The notes under the pieces were generated by a model, which worked only from the letters and a program-made list of their open reading frames with translations, was not told the origin of the DNA and did not search any database. A DNA stretch of 56,305 bases, taken from contig NZ_AXAC01000034.1 in the NCBI RefSeq assembly GCF_000472665.1, positions 1 through 56,305 of the forward strand, given 5' to 3'. Positions 6,045 through 56,305 of this stretch are shown piece by piece (the stretch's first letter is position 1; the number at the start of each line of letters is the position of its first letter). The DNA comes from Acetobacterium malicum subsp. dehalogenans DSM 11527. Its GTDB lineage: Bacteria; Bacillota; Clostridia; Eubacteriales; Eubacteriaceae. The position numbers and the translations under genes were made by a program.

Positions 6045-6596
6045 TCAGGAATCAGAGTTTATAAACGTCAGGGTTGTCTTCACATCGGCAAAGGTATTTT
6101 GCAGGGCTGCCATAAAAGCGGCGTGAACAAGTTTGGCAGGAACCGGGGTATTTTCCCAGATTAAATCCCTGGTGGTACAGGCATCGCTTAATAATTCAAT
6201 TTCGAATCCCAGTCTTTTGGCGGAACGGACCGTTGTGTCAACACACATATGGCTCATCATGCCGCAGATTACCAGCTGTCCGATGCCCAATTCTTTCAAA
6301 AGCGGAAACAAATCCGTATTGAAGAAACTATCCGGGGTATTCTTGATAACTATTTGTTCCCCGGGAAAGGGTGATACCAGGGCATTGATATTGCCCCCCT
6401 CGGTATCAGCGATAAAAAAAGGAGCCTCTACGTTTATGCTGATATGCTGAACATGAAAGACGGGAAGCTCTTTTTTCCTAAAATAGGCTAACGCGCTTTT
6501 GGCGTTTTGGGCAGCGGCATCCGGCTGATTAAGCTCAAAACGGCCACCCGGAAAATAATCATTTTGAATATCAATTAGAATAAGTGCTTTTTTCAT
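6045..6596 (-). CDS. Isochorismatase-family cysteine hydrolase
   Basis: The 183-aa protein has the catalytic triad of the isochorismatase/nicotinamidase fold: D9 in LILIDIQND, K85 in VIKNTPDSF and the nucleophile C118 in GMMSHMCVDTT. The cis-peptide glycine-methionine stretch and missing nicotinamidase metal-binding pattern suggest a general amidohydrolase, with the exact substrate unknown. GAGGAGG precedes the start. Two strong tandem palindromes and a promoter lie upstream, and the neighbouring gene on the same strand encodes an HxlR regulator, so it is probably controlled by that regulator. Confidence 0.85.
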   Translation of the reverse strand: MKKALILIDIQNDYFPGGRFELNQPDAAAQNAKSALAYFRKKELPVFHVQHISINVEAPFFIADTEGGNINALVSPFPGEQIVIKNTPDSFFNTDLFPLLKELGIGQLVICGMMSHMCVDTTVRSAKRLGFEIELLSDACTTRDLIWENTPVPAKLVHAAFMAALQNTFADVKTTLTFINSDS

Positions 6597-6620
6597 TTAT
6601 TAAACCTCCTCGTTTTTGAC

Positions 6621-6649
6621 AGTATAAGTCATCTTGATCAGGAGGTAAA
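6621..6649 (-). promoter_or_regulatory. Promoter of the cysteine hydrolase gene
   Basis: On the minus strand TTTACC (6649-6644) and TATACT (6626-6621) are spaced 17 nt apart. The first of two regulator palindromes touches the upstream edge of the -35 box. Confidence 0.5.
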
Positions 6650-6650
6650 T

Positions 6651-6715
6651 TACCCACTTTTTTGTGGGTACTAGGTTATCTTTTTTGACAGTCTGTTACC
6701 CACTTTTGGTGGGTA
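6651..6715. promoter_or_regulatory. Two tandem operators, probably for the HxlR regulator
   Basis: Site A at 6651-6670 has TACCCAC and GTGGGTA arms around a T-rich centre. Site B at 6697-6715 has arms TACCCAC and GTGGGTA with a shorter centre. Their centres are about 45 bp apart, or roughly four helical turns. They lie between the HxlR gene end and the hydrolase promoter. Confidence 0.7.
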
Positions 6716-6744
6716 TGTTTATAGGTATGGAAAAATCAGAGCAA

Positions 6745-9493: not shown

Positions 9494-10005
9494 TTAGAGT
9501 GTCATCTCGACATCAATCAATAGTTCGTTATGCCTTAAGAATGAAGGTGTAAAGGGTGAGTTATAACGTGCCAGACGGAAATTGCCATTTGTCTTCAGAT
9601 TTTTACCCTGAAGCCATTTGAGTAATTTCGATTCCAGTGCATCAAGCTTTTCTTTTTTCACTGAACCGGAAAAAGTAATTGAAGCACTTAATTTTTCCGG
9701 GATCTTTTGAATAATAATTCTTGAATTACCAGGTTCAGGGGGGATTCGTTGGCATACTTAGCGGGAAGAACAAAGGCTGTTATTGAGATGCCTGCGCCGA
9801 GCTCATTGAACACTGGTACTGTCATAGCAATTTTTTCCCGTTTGGAATTGTTTCCGCTGATGTAATCAAAGATCTGATTAAATCCGCTGGGACTTTCGCT
9901 TTTAAGATCTTCAATAGAGGCCGTCAGATAGCTTTTGTAAGTGCGAAGCTCCAATTCACCATCTTTTTCAACAACTGCGTATTCAGGGGTTTCATAATTT
10001 GACAT
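9494..10005 (-). pseudogene. SOUL heme-binding family gene, frameshifted in a C run
   Basis: From ATG 10005 (after GAGGAGGAC) the frame encodes an N-terminal SOUL domain (ETPEYAVVEKDGELELRTYK, then SKREKIAMTVPVF), but it drops out at the CCCCCC run near 9740-9745 and would stop at 9688. Adding one base restores a complete protein of about 170 aa: PEPGNSRIIIQKIPEKLSA, then NFRLARYNSPFTPSFLRHNE, with a stop at 9494-9496. The lost part is the conserved C-terminal half. SOUL proteins bind heme or related hydrophobic ligands. A real frameshift, phase variation and a sequencing error in the C run are all possible. Confidence 0.8.
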
Positions 10006-35929: not shown

Positions 35930-35958
35930 TTGAAAAGTTGCCGATTCTATGATACACT
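35930..35958 (+). promoter_or_regulatory. Promoter of the corrinoid operon
   Basis: TTGAAA (35930-35935) and TACACT (35953-35958) are 17 nt apart. The B12 aptamer begins a few bases after the predicted transcription start. Confidence 0.6.
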
Positions 35959-35966
35959 GCCACTAA

Positions 35967-36112
35967 TATAATAGAAAATTGATGAGGAAAGGGGTGGAAG
36001 ACCCCTACAGCCCCCGCTACTGTAATTGCCAACGCGGTTCTTGTACCACTGTCTCAGGACGGGAAGGGAGAACCAAGGATACGCATAAGTCAGGACACTC
36101 ATAATCATTGAA
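35967..36112 (+). ncRNA. Cobalamin riboswitch, ahead of btuF
   Basis: Clear landmarks include GAGGAAAGGGGTGGAAGACC early in the aptamer, GCCCCCGCTACTGTAATT, GTCTCAGGACGGGAAGGGAG and the B12-box ATAAGTCAGGACACTC (36085-36100). An intrinsic terminator follows at 36154, so coenzyme B12 would stop transcription before the uptake and synthesis genes. Confidence 0.93.
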
Positions 36113-36153
36113 ATTCTTCGGTGGGAAGAACAGGATTAAACCTTTTGTTTAGT

Positions 36154-45735: not shown

Positions 45736-45764
45736 TTGACAAGAAGCATGACCTGGTGTAAAAT
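45736..45764 (+). promoter_or_regulatory. Strong promoter of the second cobalamin riboswitch
   Basis: A perfect TTGACA (45736-45741) and TAAAAT (45759-45764) are spaced 17 nt apart, shortly after the cbiT stop. Confidence 0.7.
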
Positions 45765-45779
45765 GAATTCAATTAAATA

Positions 45780-45960
45780 GTGAACTTGTCCTATATTCAA
45801 GGGAAAAAGGTGTAAATCCTTTGCTGTAATCGCAGCTGTAAAACATGATGACCGTCTCAAAGCCACTGTTAAGAAATTAATGGGAAGGCAGATGGAAAGT
45901 TGATTGTTGAGCCAGAAGACCTGTTTGTAGTGATTTCTTATGAAACCTCCGATTTAGAGG
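45780..45960 (+). ncRNA. Second cobalamin riboswitch, no gene directly downstream
   Basis: Features of a cobalamin aptamer are visible: the GGGAAAAAGGTGTAAATCCTT-type early helix (read as GGGAAAAAGGTG and TAAATCCTTTG), GCTGTAATCGCAGCTG, TGGGAAGGCAGATGG and the B12-box GAGCCAGAAGACCTG (45909-45923). A terminator follows at 46004. No uptake or synthesis gene lies within the next 400 bp. Confidence 0.85.
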
Positions 45961-48911: not shown

Positions 48912-48936
48912 AACTTAAACGCTGTAACACCTCAAA

Positions 48937-49134
48937 CTACCGTACCGACCAATTGTTAATCTGTTGTTCGCCGCGCCATGCGAAATCCGCTTTGCTCCTT
49001 TCGCATTGGTCGCGGGCAGTCGCCAACTACAAGCAAGCTTGTGATTGGCTCGTTGCCTTCGCGCAGAATCGGACAGGCTCTGCCGTGTCCGCTCCGATGC
49101 GTACAACATGATGTAACAATTGTCGGTACTGGGT
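48937..49134. repeat. Fold-back palindromic element, copy 3 (long form)
   Basis: The 198-bp element has the same ends as copy 2 but in the opposite orientation (CTACCGTACCGACCAATTG at 48937 and TGTCGGTACTGGG near 49121). Between the ends lie an added ATGCGAAA/TTTCGCAT hairpin (about 48979-49006) and a module (49011-49060: GCAGTCGCCAA, AAGCAAGCTTGTGA, TGGCTCGTTGCCTT) shared with copy 1. Confidence 0.8.
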
Positions 49135-49152
49135 TATCGTTTTGGACAGTCT

Positions 49153-49182
49153 AAAACTCCCAGACACGCGACTGGGAGTTTT
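49153..49182. terminator. Bidirectional terminator
   Basis: AAAACTCCCAG (49153-49163) and CTGGGAGTTTT (49172-49182) form a perfect 11-bp stem with an 8-nt loop. It serves the minus-strand gene that ends at 49203. Confidence 0.8.
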
Positions 49183-49202: not shown

Positions 49203-50261
49203 TTAATCAAAGGTGAAGATATCTTGACCAGCGAATAAGAAAGGAATCCGATACTGGCCGCTGCCGAGGTATTCAGCGGCGGTATAATTCAACCAGGATT
49301 TACCGGCATAGCGGCGTTGAATCTGGTTGTCTCCGATTGTTCCAAAATCGAATTCTACCAGCGTATCGCCAGCATTATAACCATCATAGGTGAAATCCAG
49401 AACCTTGATGGTACCGCCGTTTTCAGTGGTTGAGACAACAATATAATCACCGCTGGCCACACTGAGCGGCGTGGGGATGTATTCACGATAGGTGGCTTGT
49501 GATACCGATAAAACTGTTCCAGAGTCGGAATTATACCAAATCCCATATAATTTATTGATGAACTCCTCCTCACTAAGAACGGATTGGGTCGTGGTTGGGG
49601 GACTAGTCAGGATATAATGCCCTTCAATTGCCGGGCTGGAAAAACCTTTAGCACTCACCGCAATGGCCTTGACGGTAGTTTCACCAATCGCCAGGGGGAT
49701 CGCAGCGGTATATTTAGCGGAAGTCTGATTTGGGAGGCTGCCATCGATGGTATAATAGACCGCATCGTCAGCACTGCCTTTGATGATTTCCAGATTCTGG
49801 GAGCCCTCATAGGTTCCTGGCGCCAGGTTGAAGTTGGGCTTTTTAACCAGGTAACTGTCCTTATTTGTTATATAGCTTTGATCTCCGGTTTCTGTGGCAG
49901 CCCGTTCCAGCAAAGCGAGAATCTCGGCTTCAGATTTTCCCGACGATAGATAGGAACTGATTAATTCATCATAGAGCTTTTTCAATTCGGCCTGATCCGT
50001 GGTTTTTTCAATTTTTTCTTCACTGGTCAGATTTGAAACGACAAATTGATTGTAAAGAAAAAAAGTGAGACCGGCCAGAATCAGTACCCCCCCGACAATT
50101 GCCAGGATGATGATCAGTGTTTTTTTGCTTTTCTTCGGCGGGGGACGTCTGGTTGGAACAATTTCAGAATCAACTTCAGTCCGTTCCAGTTCAGCCCAAT
50201 TTAATTCGTCGTTAGCCGGGGTACCTTCATAGTTGTTCGATTGGTGTTCGTGATCCTTCAT
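49203..50261 (-). CDS. Membrane-anchored protein with a CHB_HEX-type domain
   Basis: The 352-aa protein has a cytoplasmic, acidic N-terminus (residues 1-45), a single membrane helix (about 49-69: IIILAIVGGVLILAGLTFF), a helical spacer with charged residues and, at about 145-225, a chitobiase/beta-hexosaminidase C-terminal-like domain (APGTYEGSQNLEI, VYYTIDGSLPNQTSAKYT). The remaining 125 residues are beta-rich. The layout suggests a surface protein bound to the cell membrane, with its main part outside. Function unknown. Confidence 0.82.
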   Translation of the reverse strand: MKDHEHQSNNYEGTPANDELNWAELERTEVDSEIVPTRRPPPKKSKKTLIIILAIVGGVLILAGLTFFLYNQFVVSNLTSEEKIEKTTDQAELKKLYDELISSYLSSGKSEAEILALLERAATETGDQSYITNKDSYLVKKPNFNLAPGTYEGSQNLEIIKGSADDAVYYTIDGSLPNQTSAKYTAAIPLAIGETTVKAIAVSAKGFSSPAIEGHYILTSPPTTTQSVLSEEEFINKLYGIWYNSDSGTVLSVSQATYREYIPTPLSVASGDYIVVSTTENGGTIKVLDFTYDGYNAGDTLVEFDFGTIGDNQIQRRYAGKSWLNYTAAEYLGSGQYRIPFLFAGQDIFTFD

Positions 50262-50431
50262 TTTAAACCCTCCTTGTCCGGGTTGGAATCAAAACGCAAA
50301 ATAGTTATGGTAGCGAAAATTTGAAACGAATGGCCAGCAATTTACAATTGGAAAGATCGATCAGGGTCTATATTAAATCTATACCCATAAATCTCTTTTA
50401 TATGGCAGTTGAGACATTTTTTATAAAAAAA

Positions 50432-50480
50432 ACAACCGAAAAGACCACGGCCAAATAAAGGCCATGGTCTTTTCGGTTGT
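50432..50480. terminator. Long bidirectional terminator
   Basis: A 21-bp stem (50432-50452 with 50460-50480; outer part ACAACCGAAAAGACCA) has a single mismatch and T runs on both strands. It ends the minus-strand regulator gene at 50537. Confidence 0.88.
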
Positions 50481-50536
50481 CTTTTTCAAGGTTTGTGAAA
50501 GAAATGTAGATCTTGTTACATTACAGCGGCATATTT

Positions 50537-51211
50537 TTATTTATTAAGTTTGCTGAGGTAGCGATAAATGCTGGGATCTGAACAACGAAGTTGATTTGCG
50601 ACTTCGCTAACTGCTCCTTTGAGCATAAAAATGCCTTTTTTGTTTAATACATCAATGATATCAAGACGTTCGCTTTGTGTCAACCGATCAATAGGGATGT
50701 TTTTGTCAGCTAATATCTTATTTAAAACAGTTTCGGTTAACTCAGCAACAGAACCGGAGAAACTTTCGCTTTCATCATCTAAAAGAGAATTGATAGATTC
50801 ATAAGTGACGTTTTGTTCAATTAGATTATCAGGCTGACAAAGGCTTAAAACCTGATTACTTATATCTACGTATTTTTTATTATCAAAATTAATGCATAAT
50901 AATCCCACCAGCTCATCAGTTTCATCCTTGATGAACATGGTTGAAGATCTTAAAATGCGAAGTTCTTTAGAAATTCCTTTGTAATTGATTTTGTAATTGC
51001 TGTTTCTATAGCTTTTGTCTGAAACAATACTCAGCGCAAGATCGGTCATTGGGGCACCAATGGTTCGACCGCTGATATTGCCATTGGAAATCGCAACAAT
51101 GGAATTGGTATCGTATCCAATGTCGTGTAAAGCGACTTCGTAGTCTGGACCTAGTGATTTTCCCAAAAAATCCACAAGAATGCTATATTGTTTTAACATA
51201 AAATCAGTCAT
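50537..51211 (-). CDS. DauR/YheO-type regulator (PAS-like plus helix-turn-helix)
   Basis: I chose ATG 51211 (after AGAAGGTG), giving 224 aa. The N-terminal YheO-like PAS domain is recognisable (VALHDIGYDTNSIVAISNGN, ISGRTIGAPMTDL, FIKDETDELVGLLCINFD), and the C-terminal HTH (SERLDIIDVLNKKGIFMLKG, DPSIYRYLSKL) matches DauR, which controls D-amino-acid use in Pseudomonas. It is divergent from the RidA-tryptophanase-transporter operon and probably senses an amino acid or its product to control it. Confidence 0.9.
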   Translation of the reverse strand: MTDFMLKQYSILVDFLGKSLGPDYEVALHDIGYDTNSIVAISNGNISGRTIGAPMTDLALSIVSDKSYRNSNYKINYKGISKELRILRSSTMFIKDETDELVGLLCINFDNKKYVDISNQVLSLCQPDNLIEQNVTYESINSLLDDESESFSGSVAELTETVLNKILADKNIPIDRLTQSERLDIIDVLNKKGIFMLKGAVSEVANQLRCSDPSIYRYLSKLNK

Positions 51212-51587
51212 TTTTTCACCTTCTTTAATATATTCATTGAAACACCTTGTCATGGGTTGTAAATTATTTTAAGATTGAATACTAAATAACAGATGTAAAT
51301 TTCGAATAAAAAATCAATCCTAATTACTATAGAGAACCTAAAAATATTCATATAATACTAGTGAATTGTACAATCCAAGATAGAAAGGTGTATGGGCGGG
51401 CTCTAGTATATAATAACACATTAATAAATAGTCTACAATAATGTGTTGATAAAATTTATTAAAAAGATAAAAAGTTATCTGTATGATAATAATATTATAA
51501 GAAAACACCGCTAAGATCAAAAAAATACGTGTTTTTAGCAAGAATAAAAATAGTTTATAATTAATATAATAAAAAATAATAATATCG
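51212..51587. other. AT-rich divergent intergenic region
   Basis: This region of about 375 bp has no gene. It is very AT-rich and must hold the promoter of the DauR-type regulator and upstream control sites of the ridA operon. No tryptophan-rich leader peptide (tnaC-type) is visible before ridA or tnaA. Confidence 0.55.
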
Positions 51588-51616
51588 TTGACTAATTATC
51601 ATTATCGTGATAAAAT
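51588..51616 (+). promoter_or_regulatory. Promoter and operator of the ridA-tnaA operon
   Basis: TTGACT (51588-51593) and TAAAAT (51611-51616) are 17 nt apart. The inverted repeat TTATCA (51596-51601)/TGATAA (51608-51613) lies in the spacer and -10 region, so a bound regulator would compete with polymerase. Confidence 0.65.
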
Positions 51617-51643
51617 AATTTCATAAGAAAGGAGGTGCAAAAA

Positions 51644-52027
51644 ATGAAAAAAATTATTGCAACTACAAAAGCTCCATCTGCCATTGGACCATATTCTCAA
51701 GGGACAGTAGGGGCGGGTTTATTATTTATCTCTGGTCAGCTTCCGATAGACCCAGAAACTGGAGAATTTGTTAAAGGAAGTATCAAAGAACAAACAAAGC
51801 AATCACTTGGAAATTTAAAACAGATATTAGAAGCTCAAGGATCCGAATTGAAAAATGTACTTAAAACGACGGTTTTTTTGAGTGATATGAATAATTTTGG
51901 AGACATGAATCTGATTTATCAAGAAGTATTTGGAACGGATAACTTTCCGGCAAGATCTGCTGTAGAAGTTGCCCGATTACCAAAAGATGCGCTAGTAGAA
52001 ATAGAGGCGATTGCTTTACAAGGTTGA
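51644..52027 (+). CDS. ridA: RidA-family reactive enamine/imine deaminase
   Basis: From ATG 51644 (after AAAGGAGGTG) this is 127 aa. The YjgF/RidA signs are [56 protein letters not shown], with the substrate-binding Arg in the ARSAVE segment. RidA hydrolyses 2-aminoacrylate and similar enamines to ketoacids and ammonia. Its place just before a tryptophanase, which releases aminoacrylate, makes its task here clear. Confidence 0.93.
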
Positions 52028-52092
52028 TATACAATGTTTTATCAAATTGAAAATGATTGCTTTTTAAATAATTTAAAAAACGGAGGTTTGAA

Positions 52093-53475
52093 ATGAGTGT
52101 AAAATATGTACCAGAACCATTTAGAATTAAGATGGTGGAAACGATTAAGATGCTTACCCGTGAGGAAAGAATTCAAAAGATTGCCGAAGCAAAATATAAT
52201 ATGTTTAACCTGAAGGGTGAAGATGTTTATATTGATTTGCTAACAGACAGTGGAACGAACGCAATGAGCCAGGAACAATGGGCTGGTGTCATGAGAGGTG
52301 ATGAAGCTTACGCTGGTTCATCAAGTTATTTTAAACTTGTGGCGGCAGGACAAGATATTTTTGGTTATGAATATATTCAACCTGTTCATCAAGGTCGTGC
52401 CGCTGAAAAAGTTATGTTTGAATTATTGATGGGAAAAGGCCAATACTCGATCTCAAATACGTTTTTTGATACAACAAGAGCTCACGTAGAAGCAACCGGC
52501 GCCAGAGCGATTGACTGTGTTGTTGCTGAGGCTAAGGATCCATCTATACGTGCTCCTTTCAAAGGAAATATGGATGTTGTAAAACTGGAATCTTTAATTA
52601 ACGAGTATGGAGTCGATAAGATCGGTCTTGTTGTTATGACGATTACAAACAATTCCGCCGGCGGTCAACCAGTTTCCATGGAGAATGTCAGAAAAACAGC
52701 TGAAATTTGCAAGAAATATGGAATTAAATTATGTATTGATGCAGCTCGCTATGCTGAAAACGCTTTCTTTGTCAAGCAAAGAGAAGAAGGCTATGCAGAT
52801 GTGTCGATTAAAGACATTGTAAAAGAAATGTTCGGTTTTGCGGATATGTTTACAATGAGTGCCAAGAAAGATACCATTGTAAATATGGGTGGATTAATTG
52901 GAATTAAAGATGATAAAGAACTGGTTACCCTTTGTAAAGCACGTACAATTCTGTTTGAAGGTTTCATTTCTTATGGAGGGCTTTCTGGTCGAGACCTTGA
53001 AAGTTTAGCAATTGGTCTTTATGAAGGACTCAACGAAGATTATTTAAAATATCGTATTGGACAGATGGAATATCTTGCTGGCAGACTTGACGAAGCCGGG
53101 ATTGCTTATCAGGCGCCAGTAGGCGGACATGGTGTATTTGTAGACGCTAAAGCTTTATTGCCTCAGATTCCATACTATGAGTTCCCTGGTCAAGCTCTGG
53201 CGATTGAACTATATATCGAAGCTGGAATTCGAACATGTGATATTGGATCATATATGTTAGGGAACGATCCTGACACATTAGAACAACTCCATTCAGAATT
53301 TGAGTTTACACGCTTTGCAATTCCACGACGTGTTTATACCCAATCACATATCGATATTATGGCAGATGCTTTAATTGCGATAAAAGAAAGATCAAGCTCA
53401 ATTAAAGGATACAAAATCACATGGGAGCCACCTGTTCTCAGACATTTCCAGGCAAGTCTTGCACCAATAGAATAG
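52093..53475 (+). CDS. tnaA: Tryptophanase-type beta-eliminating lyase
   Basis: The 460-aa PLP enzyme belongs to the tryptophanase/tyrosine phenol-lyase family: [19 protein letters not shown], the PLP Lys K259 in SAKKD, and [13 protein letters not shown] near the C-terminus. Several positions read like tryptophanase rather than tyrosine phenol-lyase: [23 protein letters not shown] (the phenol-lyase has an Arg-bearing ERG here) and PVLRHF. It splits tryptophan or a related amino acid to indole (or another leaving group), pyruvate and ammonia through 2-aminoacrylate. AACGGAGG precedes the start. Confidence 0.88.
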
Positions 53476-53502
53476 AAAAAAACCGGTTTCTGTTGTAAAC
53501 AA

Positions 53503-53543
53503 GAGGTTTTAACAATAACCGTAGGTGTTATTGTTAAAACCTC
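53503..53543. repeat. Perfect 17-bp hairpin between tnaA and the transporter gene
   Basis: GAGGTTTTAACAATAAC (53503-53519) pairs perfectly with GTTATTGTTAAAACCTC (53527-53543) around a 7-nt loop. It has no T run, so it looks like an mRNA-stabilising or attenuating hairpin inside the operon rather than a full terminator. Confidence 0.75.
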
Positions 53544-53606
53544 AAACTAAAAAGTATTACCCCCCCGATAAAAAAAATAGCAGATATTTCCAAGGAGGAG
53601 CAATCG

Positions 53607-55142
53607 ATGAGAGAGGTTTGGCAGAGCAGGAAAGGCTTTATTTTTGCAGCGGCAGGAGCTGCGATAGGTTTAGGTAATTTATGGCGATTTCCATTTCAAG
53701 CATATAAAAATGGGGGCGGTGCTTTTCTTTTACCCTATTTAGTAGCGTTGATTACTTGCGCTATCCCATTAATGATTATGGAATATGCCTATGGCAGAAA
53801 AATCCGTGGTGGATCAGTAAAAGCATTTTCCAAACTACAGAAAAAATTAGAAGTAGTAGGTTGGATTCAGGTTATGGTACCAATTGTTGTTATGACTTAT
53901 TATCCAACAATCATTGCAGTAGCCGTTGTTTTCATGGTCTTTTCATTAGGACATGCATTTGGAATTATAAACTGGCTTTCAGATCCGGGACCTATCATGG
54001 GTATGGTCACGGGTACCGCAGATAGTGCATTGGATTTTGGCGCTGGGATCAGTATGTATATCTTGGCTGCAGTCGTTTTAGTCTGGTTTTGCAACTGGAT
54101 TATTGTCAAAAAAGGTATCTCAGGTGGGATCGAAAAAATGTCAACCATCTTCACCCCTATGTTGATGGTGTTAATGATCGTATTTATGATTAATGCAGTG
54201 CGTTTAGACGGCGCTACAATCGGACTGGAAGCGCTTTTTAAACCGGATTTTTCAACAATCTTAAATCCGAGCATTTGGGTTGCCGCTTACGCCCAGGTAT
54301 TCTTTTCGACGACCTTAGCGGTTGGTGTTATGATTGCATATGGTTCATATCTGCATAAAAAAGCAGATGTTGTCAACAGTGCCGTCATAACCGTTTTAGC
54401 AAATTCCAGTTTTGATCTGATTGCCGGGATATTGGTATTTTCAACTCTTGGTTATTTGGTAAATAGTATGGGTGTAGAATTCACATCTTTTGGTACCGGC
54501 GCAGGCGTAGCATTTATTGCATTCCCGATTGCAATTTCGACAATGTCGTCAAACATAGTTGTCCAGGGTTTGCTGGGATTTGTCTTTTTCTTCTGCTTGT
54601 TTATTGCCGGGATATCCTCCAGTATTTCAATGTTGGAATCGTTCACAACGGCAGCGCTGGATAAGTTTAGTATTTCGAGATCAAAATTGGTTTCAATTAT
54701 TAGCATTGTGGGTTTAACAGGAAGTGCATGTTTTGCGAGCTATGCGGGTTTCAATTTTATCTTGGACATCGTCGATGCTTATGTTGGAAATATTATTATC
54801 GCTAGTTTGGGTTTGGTAGAAGTTATTTTAATTAGCTATATTTATGGTACAAGCAAGCTCCGGGAAGAAGCAAATCAGTATTCCGATTACAAAATTGGAA
54901 AATGGTGGGATTATCTATTAAGATACTTTACCCCATTATTACTTGGAATTGTAGTTATTACTAATACATTTAATTTAGTTACCGGATTGTTTAGTTCAGA
55001 AACAGTTGTCGTACTGTCGAATATCATATTTGGTTGGGGAACAGTAGTCATCATGGTCGGTGTAGCATATATGTTTTATAAGAGAAAATGGACTACAGAT
55101 GTAAAACTGGATTCATTGGAAACAAGTCCCGATGAAGAATAA
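53607..55142 (+). CDS. NSS-family sodium-dependent amino acid transporter
   Basis: The 511-aa protein has about 11-12 membrane helices and the neurotransmitter:sodium symporter start: GFIFAAAGAAIGLGNLWRFP followed by AYKNGGGAFLLPYL, which form the Na+ and substrate site of helix 1 and the following region. The nearby small-subunit gene places it in the MetP/MhsT-like group that takes up hydrophobic or aromatic amino acids. Beside tryptophanase, tryptophan or another lyase substrate is the likely cargo. GGAGGAGC precedes the start. Confidence 0.92.
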   Translation: MREVWQSRKGFIFAAAGAAIGLGNLWRFPFQAYKNGGGAFLLPYLVALITCAIPLMIMEYAYGRKIRGGSVKAFSKLQKKLEVVGWIQVMVPIVVMTYYPTIIAVAVVFMVFSLGHAFGIINWLSDPGPIMGMVTGTADSALDFGAGISMYILAAVVLVWFCNWIIVKKGISGGIEKMSTIFTPMLMVLMIVFMINAVRLDGATIGLEALFKPDFSTILNPSIWVAAYAQVFFSTTLAVGVMIAYGSYLHKKADVVNSAVITVLANSSFDLIAGILVFSTLGYLVNSMGVEFTSFGTGAGVAFIAFPIAISTMSSNIVVQGLLGFVFFFCLFIAGISSSISMLESFTTAALDKFSISRSKLVSIISIVGLTGSACFASYAGFNFILDIVDAYVGNIIIASLGLVEVILISYIYGTSKLREEANQYSDYKIGKWWDYLLRYFTPLLLGIVVITNTFNLVTGLFSSETVVVLSNIIFGWGTVVIMVGVAYMFYKRKWTTDVKLDSLETSPDEE

Positions 55143-55176
55143 CCATTAAGTAAACGTTTGAAATGGAGGAACTACT

Positions 55177-55302
55177 ATGTCGGCAAGTGCAATAGCAATG
55201 ATGGTGGTCGGGTGTGGAATCGTTTGGGGTGGAGTAATCTTAGCAATTACAATCGCGTTAGTTGTGGATAAGAAAAAGGCCGCAGACGAAAGGCTAAAAT
55301 AG
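55177..55302 (+). CDS. MetS-type small subunit of the NSS transporter
   Basis: This 41-aa protein has one membrane helix (about residues 5-30) and a short basic-acidic tail (DKKKAADERLK). Small single-helix proteins of this form are encoded after NSS transporter genes and, in Corynebacterium MetPS, are required for transport. ATG 55177 follows TGGAGGA. It lies 34 bp after the transporter stop. Confidence 0.88.
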   Translation: MSASAIAMMVVGCGIVWGGVILAITIALVVDKKKAADERLK

Positions 55303-55396
55303 AGAAATTTTCCAAAATAGTAAAAATGCTACGAAAAAATCGATAAATTAAGTCAAGAAACAATTTTGAGCAGTACAAAGAAACTGATTATATTAG

Positions 55397-55442
55397 AACT
55401 GAGGAAGAGTTGAATAATTTAACTCTTCCTCAGTTTTTTTAT
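55397..55442 (+). terminator. Terminator of the ridA-tnaA-transporter operon
   Basis: AACTGAGGAAGAGTT (55397-55411) pairs perfectly with AACTCTTCCTCAGTT (55421-55435), followed by a T run. Confidence 0.92.
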
Positions 55443-55562
55443 GTGCAAAAAATTGTGAGAAAAAAGAATAACGAAAGCTCAATACTAAATAAATAGAATA
55501 TGTTATGATATTTAGGATAAAAAATCACGCGCAATGCCCTTAAATAAAGAAAAGAGGTTCGC

Positions 55563-55724
55563 ATGTATAAAATACTAATTATAGAAGACGATCAGATTAT
55601 TGCCAAGGCACTGAAAAATCATTTGGACAAATGGGAACTTGAAACCCAAATAGTTGAGGATTTTCATCATATTCTGGATCAGTTTGTGGGAGTGTTTCAA
55701 GTTTTGTGTATTTGCGAAAATTGA
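55563..55724 (+). pseudogene. Response regulator, cut by an IS256-family element
   Basis: ATG 55563 (after AAAGAGG) starts YKILIIEDDQIIAKALKNHL, the beginning of a receiver domain with its acidic pair, similar to BceR/GraR-type regulators. After about 40 codons (HHILDQF) the similarity ends and the frame runs into IS sequence, stopping at 55722-55724. The phosphoacceptor Asp and the DNA-binding domain are missing, so it is inactive. Its histidine kinase may lie beyond the IS. Confidence 0.8.
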
Positions 55725-55745
55725 TGTAGAATAGAGAATTTAATT

Positions 55746-55780
55746 AAGGGGCAAGGGCATTAAAATGACGCTTGCCCCTT
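55746..55780. terminator. Hairpin near the IS end
   Basis: AAGGGGCAAG and CTTGCCCCTT form a perfect 10-bp stem with a 15-nt spacer, positioned between the transposase stop and the IS terminus. Confidence 0.6.
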
Positions 55781-55867
55781 ACCTGTATTATAATCCGAAT
55801 TGATTGCATGTCAATAAAAAGCAAGACTGAATCTAACTCTGGAATGCACGGATGTGATTTTTAGGAA

Positions 55868-56305
55868 TTAATCCAGCCGCTCAGAAAAAAAGATTTCCAG
55901 CTGGGAGTGAATCTGGCCCCAATCTTTCCTCCGACCCGTCCACTTTTGGGTGATATCCATGGTTGCCAGATACAGCATTTTAAAGAGACTATCATCCGTT
56001 GGGAATACGGTTTTGCTTTTCGTTACTTTTCGGAGCTGCCGGTTGAATCCCTCGATGGAATTGGTCGTATAAATGAGGGTTCGAACTTCCTGCGGATATT
56101 TGAAATAGGTCGCGAGTTTCGGCCAGTTGTTTCGCCAGGAATCCGGAATTTTAGGATATTTTTTGCCCCATTTTCCCTCAAATGTAGCCAGTTCGCTCAA
56201 AGCAGCATCTTCAGTTGGCGCCGTATAAACCCGCTTCAGATCGGCCATGAGTGACCGGATATCTTTATAGGAAACAAACCGGGTGGTATTTCTGATCTGG
56301 TGGAT
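55868..56305 (-). CDS. IS256-family transposase, C-terminal part
   Basis: The 145 residues up to the stop at 55868 include the IS256/MULE-type C-terminal block VRTLIYTTNSIEGFNRQLRK with the catalytic Glu, then TIL-like helical parts (FKMLYLATMDITQKWTGRRK) and the typical W-x-Q end. The frame is open through the right edge, so the N-terminal part including the first two catalytic Asp residues is outside the window. The piece seen shows no defect. Confidence 0.9.
   Translation of the reverse strand: MHQIRNTTRFVSYKDIRSLMADLKRVYTAPTEDAALSELATFEGKWGKKYPKIPDSWRNNWPKLATYFKYPQEVRTLIYTTNSIEGFNRQLRKVTKSKTVFPTDDSLFKMLYLATMDITQKWTGRRKDWGQIHSQLEIFFSERLD

Follow-up and report, generated by a model that had tools for sequence, protein, structure and literature searches.

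The tnaCAB operon of Escherichia coli encodes the leader peptide TnaC, the tryptophanase TnaA and the transporter TnaB. A different transporter is found in Symbiobacterium, where TnaT, a member of the NSS (SNF) family, is linked to tryptophanase (a link that our literature search did not confirm); another NSS-type system, MetPS, is the methionine/alanine importer of Corynebacterium glutamicum. The locus described here resembles each of these in part. It occupies positions 50537-55302 of contig NZ_AXAC01000034.1 from Acetobacterium malicum subsp. dehalogenans DSM 11527, analysed over 56,305 nucleotides (the window), and comprises genes for RidA, TnaA, an NSS transporter and a small membrane subunit, with a divergent regulator gene upstream. 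As in tnaCAB, tryptophanase is co-located with a transporter, and the predicted chemistry is the same β-elimination, dependent on pyridoxal 5'-phosphate (PLP), to indole, pyruvate and ammonia. Unlike in tnaCAB, no leader peptide open reading frame (ORF) was found; the locus has instead a local PAS_6/HTH_22 regulator and a candidate operator overlapping the promoter, carries an NSS symporter and subunit in place of TnaB, and includes RidA within the operon. The position of the symporter directly behind tnaA recalls TnaT; however, the protein is of another, long NSS subfamily, whose members are paired with a MetS-like small subunit. MetPS likewise combines a long NSS transporter with a small membrane subunit whose gene comes next, but against the MetS equivalog model NF033494 the window's subunit reaches only 20.7 bits, where 70 are required, which does not fit a MetPS importer, and the close relatives of the transporter are tied to tryptophanase-type genes.

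We think it probable that these genes form a self-contained cassette for using tryptophan, gained by horizontal transfer. In the scheme that we favor, the NSS transporter and its subunit would import tryptophan together with Na+, TnaA would split it into indole and 2-aminoacrylate, and RidA would speed the release of pyruvate and ammonia from 2-aminoacrylate/2-iminopropionate, sparing the PLP enzymes of the cell; both products would then be used. The regulator would bind a GATAA-type dyad over the single promoter before ridA and repress the operon until its PAS domain meets a ligand, for which tryptophan, a relative of tryptophan or a product are candidates.

A preliminary description of the locus, made from the DNA sequence alone, had proposed an amino-acid-cleavage gene set of regulator, RidA, tryptophanase, transporter and small subunit. 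The five ORFs are indeed present and intact, each at the place proposed for it, and the family models agree with the assignments. The analyses made here also bear out the core of that proposal, in which RidA deals with the 2-aminoacrylate from tryptophanase, the NSS protein and its subunit act as importer, and a TnaC leader is lacking. The regulator gene (50537-51253, minus strand) encodes PAS_6 (PF08348, 128.6 bits) followed by HTH_22 (PF13309, 71.7 bits), both over cut-off, which is the YheO/DauR architecture that had been suggested, and it diverges from ridA (51644-52027, plus strand, like all genes that follow; 127 aa). RidA scores 163.3 bits against TIGR00004 (cut-off 106.25) and keeps a 14-residue segment with a conserved arginine that we take to be catalytic; for its start, ATG 51644, which follows AGGAGG, is a better choice than GTG 51635. 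Next come tnaA (52093-53475; 460 aa), the long-type NSS gene (53607-55142; 511 aa), whose product scores 297 bits against PF00209 and 66 bits against NF037979 (cut-off 50), and the gene for the 41-aa subunit (55177-55302), which passes NF033493, MetS_like_NSS (37.5 bits; cut-off 25), and lies just under the cut-off of PF16951 (25.0 against 26.2 bits).

TnaA matches the subfamily model NF009709 over its whole length (721.5 bits; cut-off 285) and stays under both tryptophanase equivalog cut-offs (TIGR02617, 579 of 826 bits; NF053783, 608 of 750 bits). Among solved structures it matches 8sij, "Tryptophanase 1", best (793 bits along the full length), and then 1ax4 (520 bits). We compared its active-site residues in an alignment of 92 TnaA-family proteins, made up of the window protein and the proteins of the fetched loci. 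Residues K259, R219, Y73, R102, T55 and R413, presumably the PLP lysine and other catalytic or binding residues, are invariant in all 92. At three further positions the window protein has D126, I384 and H451, states that we take to be specific to tryptophanases; tyrosine phenol-lyase (TPL) 9j3u has T, R and F there. The D, I/V, H combination occurs in 91 of the 92 proteins (V replaces I in ten), and the sole exception, with T, R and F, serves as a TPL-like control. That protein (locus L014, G037:C6:23470-24846) has a short NSS gene upstream of its gene, and its genome also encodes a tryptophanase. The window enzyme does not fit TPL: it has D, I and H in place of T, R and F at the discriminating positions, and it scores below the TIGR02618 cut-off (539 of 721 bits). 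Since the discriminating residues are of the tryptophanase kind, unlike those of TPL, tryptophan would be the likeliest substrate. The preliminary description had left room for a tryptophan-related or S-substituted amino acid; the residues favor tryptophan, and S-substituted cysteines stay on as possible side substrates only.

The transporter points the same way. In 398 genomes of the phylum, the eight closest relatives of the NSS protein (480-518 bits; L133-L140) are all encoded directly behind a tryptophanase-type TnaA-family gene; these eight loci come from three families, five of them from one. None of 21 fetched loci with weaker NSS matches (at most 411 bits, about 1.5 kb of flank each; eight further weak places lie outside this sample) has its gene behind a tryptophanase gene. 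Because of this linkage to tryptophanase-type genes, we infer that the transporter takes up tryptophan. A MetS-like small ORF follows all ten tna-linked long NSS genes of other loci (L133-L140, L016 and L035). Two observations temper these assignments: by eye, similar ORFs were recognised behind 11 or more of the 21 weaker NSS genes, so the subunit is not special to tryptophanase and goes with the long NSS type as such; and the relatives of the NSS protein in the PDB do not settle its substrate. The long type is also the rarer partner in our sample of related tnaA loci (the best 80 of 530), where it lies behind tnaA in two loci against 24 for a shorter NSS type. The short type scores only 113-151 bits against the window's protein, and no subunit-like ORF was seen in 28 loci that carry it, some of which end close behind the gene. 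Two NSS lineages have thus been recruited to tryptophanase.

These same proteins could be read as an operon for the breakdown of cysteine or S-substituted cysteines, with the tryptophanase fold serving as a C-S lyase or desulfhydrase and the NSS pair taking up a sulfur amino acid, much as MetPS does with methionine. Tryptophanases accept S-substituted cysteines, a title from 1979 cited in PMC12172467 naming S-o-nitrophenyl-L-cysteine as a substrate, and the small subunit does belong to a MetS-like family. RidA genes, moreover, cluster with those of cysteine desulfhydrases too (PMC4433059). We nonetheless hold this reading to be improbable: the substrate-side signature residues compared are tryptophanase-type, the insert contains no further sulfur-metabolism gene, and the close NSS relatives lie, in eight of eight cases, behind tryptophanase-type enzymes.

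The flanks of the cassette and its phylogeny argue that it was acquired. A search of 61 genomes, the organism's own and 60 relatives, found a full-length TnaA in only one of 19 genomes of the genus, that of the window itself, and in one of 37 genomes of the family; two other matches within the genus (G013 and G016) are partial (E 3e-4 to 5e-4). The gene to the left of the locus (49203-50261) has a long match in 12 congeners, and in all six whose regions were fetched (L126-L131) it adjoins the response-regulator gene that lies to the right of the locus (from 55563). Homology with the congeners ends at 50294-50442 and resumes at 55546-55563, the congeners having about 110-260 bp between these points (three aligned). 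Because the flanks adjoin in congeners and homology breaks at both edges, the intervening stretch of about 5.1 kb, holding both transcription units and their terminators, is on this comparison a block that arrived or was assembled as one. In a quick tree of the 92 proteins, TnaA is sister to that of Clostridium bowmanii (SH-like approximate likelihood ratio support, SH-aLRT, 97), and the C. bowmanii locus (L016) also has the closest NSS protein (83-85%) and subunit (69% over 35 residues). No ridA match occurs in that locus in the 6 kb that flank tnaA on each side; RidA of the window is closest to the proteins encoded beside tnaA in L024 and L028 (69-70%). The five-gene set would therefore be a mosaic, or C. 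bowmanii has lost parts of it. Within the sample of 80, RidA and a long NSS gene occur together in none of the loci. Base composition does not by itself mark the insert: with a G+C content of 36.0% it lies below the remainder of the window (43.5%), yet elsewhere in the window a stretch of the same length goes down to 34.1%. We therefore rejected low G+C as proof of transfer, and the claim is carried by the empty site and the phylogeny.

To the right of the insert (55563-56305), the response-regulator gene is cut after about 42 codons, and a Mutator-family (PF00872) transposase gene follows and runs off the end of the contig. Parts of this stretch recur at several other places in the genome, and one congener (L126) has an uncut response-regulator ORF of full length, behind which come ORFs that resemble, by eye, kinase and ABC-transporter genes. 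The truncated gene and the transposase would suit a non-functional passenger, an acquired cassette lying unexpressed beside a decaying region. We consider this highly improbable, since the five ORFs are intact, promoter and terminator-like sites are present, and the catalytic residues compared are kept.

The insert appears to consist of two transcription units. A terminator-like hairpin stands behind the regulator gene at the left insert edge (50433-50479, minus strand; 20 pairs, 11 of them G-C, then a T run), and the hairpin search placed another after the operon, near the right edge (55395-55437, plus strand). From strand, spacing and the terminator-like hairpin after the last gene, ridA, tnaA, the NSS gene and the subunit gene would be co-transcribed. 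The gap of 131 nt between tnaA and the NSS gene (53476-53606) contains, on folding of the spacer, a strong hairpin with a perfect 17-bp stem (53503-53543, plus strand); the folding energy of the whole spacer is -31.7 kcal/mol, with a z of -4.7 relative to shuffled sequences. Of 35 other loci in which an NSS gene follows tnaA, 11 have a perfect stem of 10-17 bp at this place, with sequences that differ. A search of 50400-55600 against Rfam found no riboswitch or T-box; a known RNA element was rejected, the best sub-threshold matches coinciding with the terminator hairpins. A PHROGs search gave no match.

The predicted promoter of the ridA operon (51588-51616, plus strand) has a -35 element TTGACT, a 17-nt spacer and a TG before the -10 element TAAAAT, and similar geometry recurs upstream of related operons. 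Transcription would start near 51623, giving a leader of about 21 nt before ATG 51644. None of the ten short ORFs (at least 4 aa) listed on the plus strand upstream of ridA contains tryptophan, and a TnaC-like short ORF (W-x3-D-x5-9-P) was found in none of 81 related loci with enough upstream sequence. As far as these searches go, the earlier impression that a TnaC-type leader is lacking holds, and with an inferred leader this short and no upstream ORF with tryptophan, TnaC-type control of the operon is unlikely. What the promoter offers instead is a candidate operator, the palindrome TTATCGTGATAA (51602-51613, an exact match in the window), which overlaps the spacer and the -10 element. The pattern TTGAC-N5-11-T[TC]AT-N5-TGATA, which joins promoter and dyad, occurs in 8 of 25 spacers between regulator and tna genes (the window included), in none of 300 dinucleotide shuffles and, window copies aside, at a single site (L037) in the 1.29 Mb of sequence from other loci; the palindrome lies within this pattern. 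Whether a spacer has the pattern goes with the similarity of its regulator: among 24 regulators compared, five of the six most like that of the window have it, as against two of the 18 others. TTATM-N5-KATAA dyads number 8 in 19 A+T-rich spacers, where 200 shuffles give 0.9 on average and never more than 5. The word TTATCRYGATAA stands upstream of tnaA in the window, in L002 and in L016 and, window copies aside, nowhere else among 172 loci; the organism's own genome has four such places, of which the three outside this promoter read TTATCGCGATAA. A possible upstream copy of the operator, TTATC-N5-GATAA (51475-51489), is weak on its own; this form occurs in 2 of the 19 spacers (shuffle mean 0.065 sites) and four times elsewhere in 1.31 Mb. 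Another shared word, AATACTTGAT, present in eight spacers, was rejected, as in seven of them (Pleomorphomonas) it is the coding start of tnaA.

Several points count against this operator. The motif is missing from 17 of the 25 spacers, including that of L017, with a regulator that ranks fifth in similarity among the 24; the TTGAC, TG and TAAWAT portion is expected in any promoter; the operator proper, the TTAT/GATAA dyad, is imperfect in the promoter register of the window; and the patterns were written after seeing the sequences. One could envision, then, that the regulator acts as an activator or has no part in controlling the operon, and that related operons share the motif simply because their promoters are conserved. 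The conserved letters do coincide in part with a promoter having TG before its -10 element, and C. bowmanii keeps the promoter and TTATCACGATAA while its PAS_6 regulator gene, upstream of tnaA, is disrupted and reduced to two fragments (L016:5605-5743). Yet promoter conservation sits poorly with a dyad that exceeds shuffles in the A+T-rich spacers and with a motif whose presence tracks regulator similarity and which is so rare elsewhere; and a site over the -10 element favors repression over activation. We regard the activator or no-control reading as unlikely. With a shared candidate operator and no TnaC-like ORF, control by a local protein is the best reading, and that control is probably repression.

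The grouping of these genes is largely of a known kind. RidA adjoins tnaA in eight of the 80 related loci, five times upstream as in the window, once directly downstream and twice downstream past an NSS gene. The regulator is divergent upstream of tnaA in 22 loci and lies nearby in other arrangements in five. In 41 of the 80, however, neither RidA, nor a PAS_6/HTH_22 regulator, nor an NSS gene was found adjacent, some of these loci being cut by contig ends, so tryptophanase does not need these partners. Clustering of Rid genes with tryptophanase was published in 2015 in PMC4433059, which names RidA, Rid1 or Rid2 genes beside tryptophanase. The enzyme set is ordinary, and the lead lies in the company kept by regulator and RidA.

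That company becomes apparent when homologues of the regulator (37-45% identity) are collected from the same 398 genomes. Leaving aside the organism's own, ridA lies within about 1.5 kb in 12 of 14 (L221-L234, from G310, G177, G097, G415, G147, G139, G108, G209, G358, G286, G141, G175, G406 and G287). When neighbouring genes were grouped by clustering and one representative per cluster identified, threonine ammonia-lyase appeared at 10 of the 14 loci, the alpha and beta subunits of iron-sulfur serine ammonia-lyase at 8 and 7, and an SDF-family transporter at 8. In L234 a TPL gene adjoins ridA some genes away from the regulator, and in L233 a class I/II aminotransferase-fold enzyme occurs in its surroundings. 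Among the 30 best PF08348 loci of these genomes, ridA is present in 13, a gene of the tryptophanase/TPL family in six (no overlap) and neither in 11; in two sets of control loci the same neighbourhood test scored none of 21 and none of 34 (a 35th, L096, is the window itself). In the organism's own genome a second RidA gene (C1:104232-104615; L265) is followed directly by a PAS_6 regulator gene (C1:103457-104125); no lyase was recognised beside this pair, its neighbours being viewed as ORFs only. The genome also has a third, weak Rid-family match.

An AlphaFold2 model of the window protein (mean predicted local distance difference test score, pLDDT, 81.9) has an N-terminal part that matches PAS/LOV domains and a helical C-terminal part; as only generic PAS/LOV folds matched, assignment of a ligand from structure comparison was dropped, and the only match listed in a PDB sequence search has E 0.38. 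When 22 tna-linked regulators are compared with 13 ridA-linked ones, many positions are at least 90% conserved in both groups, among them E39, D44, N57, R63, K109, N122 and D124, and few are group-specific, which would be compatible with a common ligand. Taken together, the neighbourhoods suggest that a clade of PAS_6/HTH_22 regulators follows enamine-forming metabolism. It is tempting to go further and propose that in Bacillota these regulators partner RidA and govern breakdown reactions that release enamines or imines, catalyzed by tryptophanase, TPL and the threonine and serine ammonia-lyases; they would then sense a common reactive product or keto acid and not the operon's own amino acid, and the window would hold the tryptophanase version of an enamine-stress module. 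This broader proposal is speculative, and we rate it as doubtful. The samples of 14 and 30 loci are not independent, 13 of the 30 being shared; in the remaining 17, ridA stands beside the regulator in two and a tryptophanase/TPL-family gene in six, so the link to ridA is weak beyond the nearest homologues; and the 13 ridA-bearing loci represent seven families, with six loci from one (f52). DauR of Pseudomonas aeruginosa (dauBAR), according to a table in PMC7789669, shares the PF08348 plus PF13309 architecture of the window's regulator. It serves a different pathway: DauA releases an imine, and iminoarginine falls to Rid2/Rid3 instead of RidA (PMC5619798). This case speaks against a simple rule linking PAS_6 regulators to RidA, as do the 41 tnaA loci at which none of the partners was found. 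A term search of the main text of PMC4433059 found no YheO, PAS domain, HTH or "transcription", so the company of regulator and RidA is not described there. Among the titles listed by literature searches from which subscription journals are largely missing, and in which YheO was not paired with RidA, none is about a YheO-type regulator of tryptophanase.

Elsewhere in the window, two cobalamin riboswitches score over the gathering score (35936-36120 and 45758-45942), and a group II intron match lies at 168-251 (45.4 bits; gathering score 40). A short stretch at 48934-49161 also matches other sites in congeners, in L126 at about 9760-9891 and in L131 at about 6555-6717, and is possibly a dispersed intergenic repeat.

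To what was known of tryptophanase clusters, the locus adds an anatomy of control (a candidate operator and a predicted leader of about 21 nt), a long NSS subfamily tied to tryptophanase, an insertion with clean borders and, as a lead, the association between regulator and RidA. It offers a concrete control point for tryptophanase operons outside the TnaC paradigm, with one local regulator, one candidate operator and a predicted leader of about 21 nt, and it suggests a substrate, tryptophan, for the long NSS subfamily with a MetS-like small subunit. It also provides a clean example of a catabolic cassette that would have arrived in one piece, bringing along a regulator and terminators of its own. 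If the pattern of PAS_6 regulators and RidA with changing enamine-forming lyases is causal, it would show what a little-known regulator family senses, and would mean that bacteria regulate enamine stress as such.

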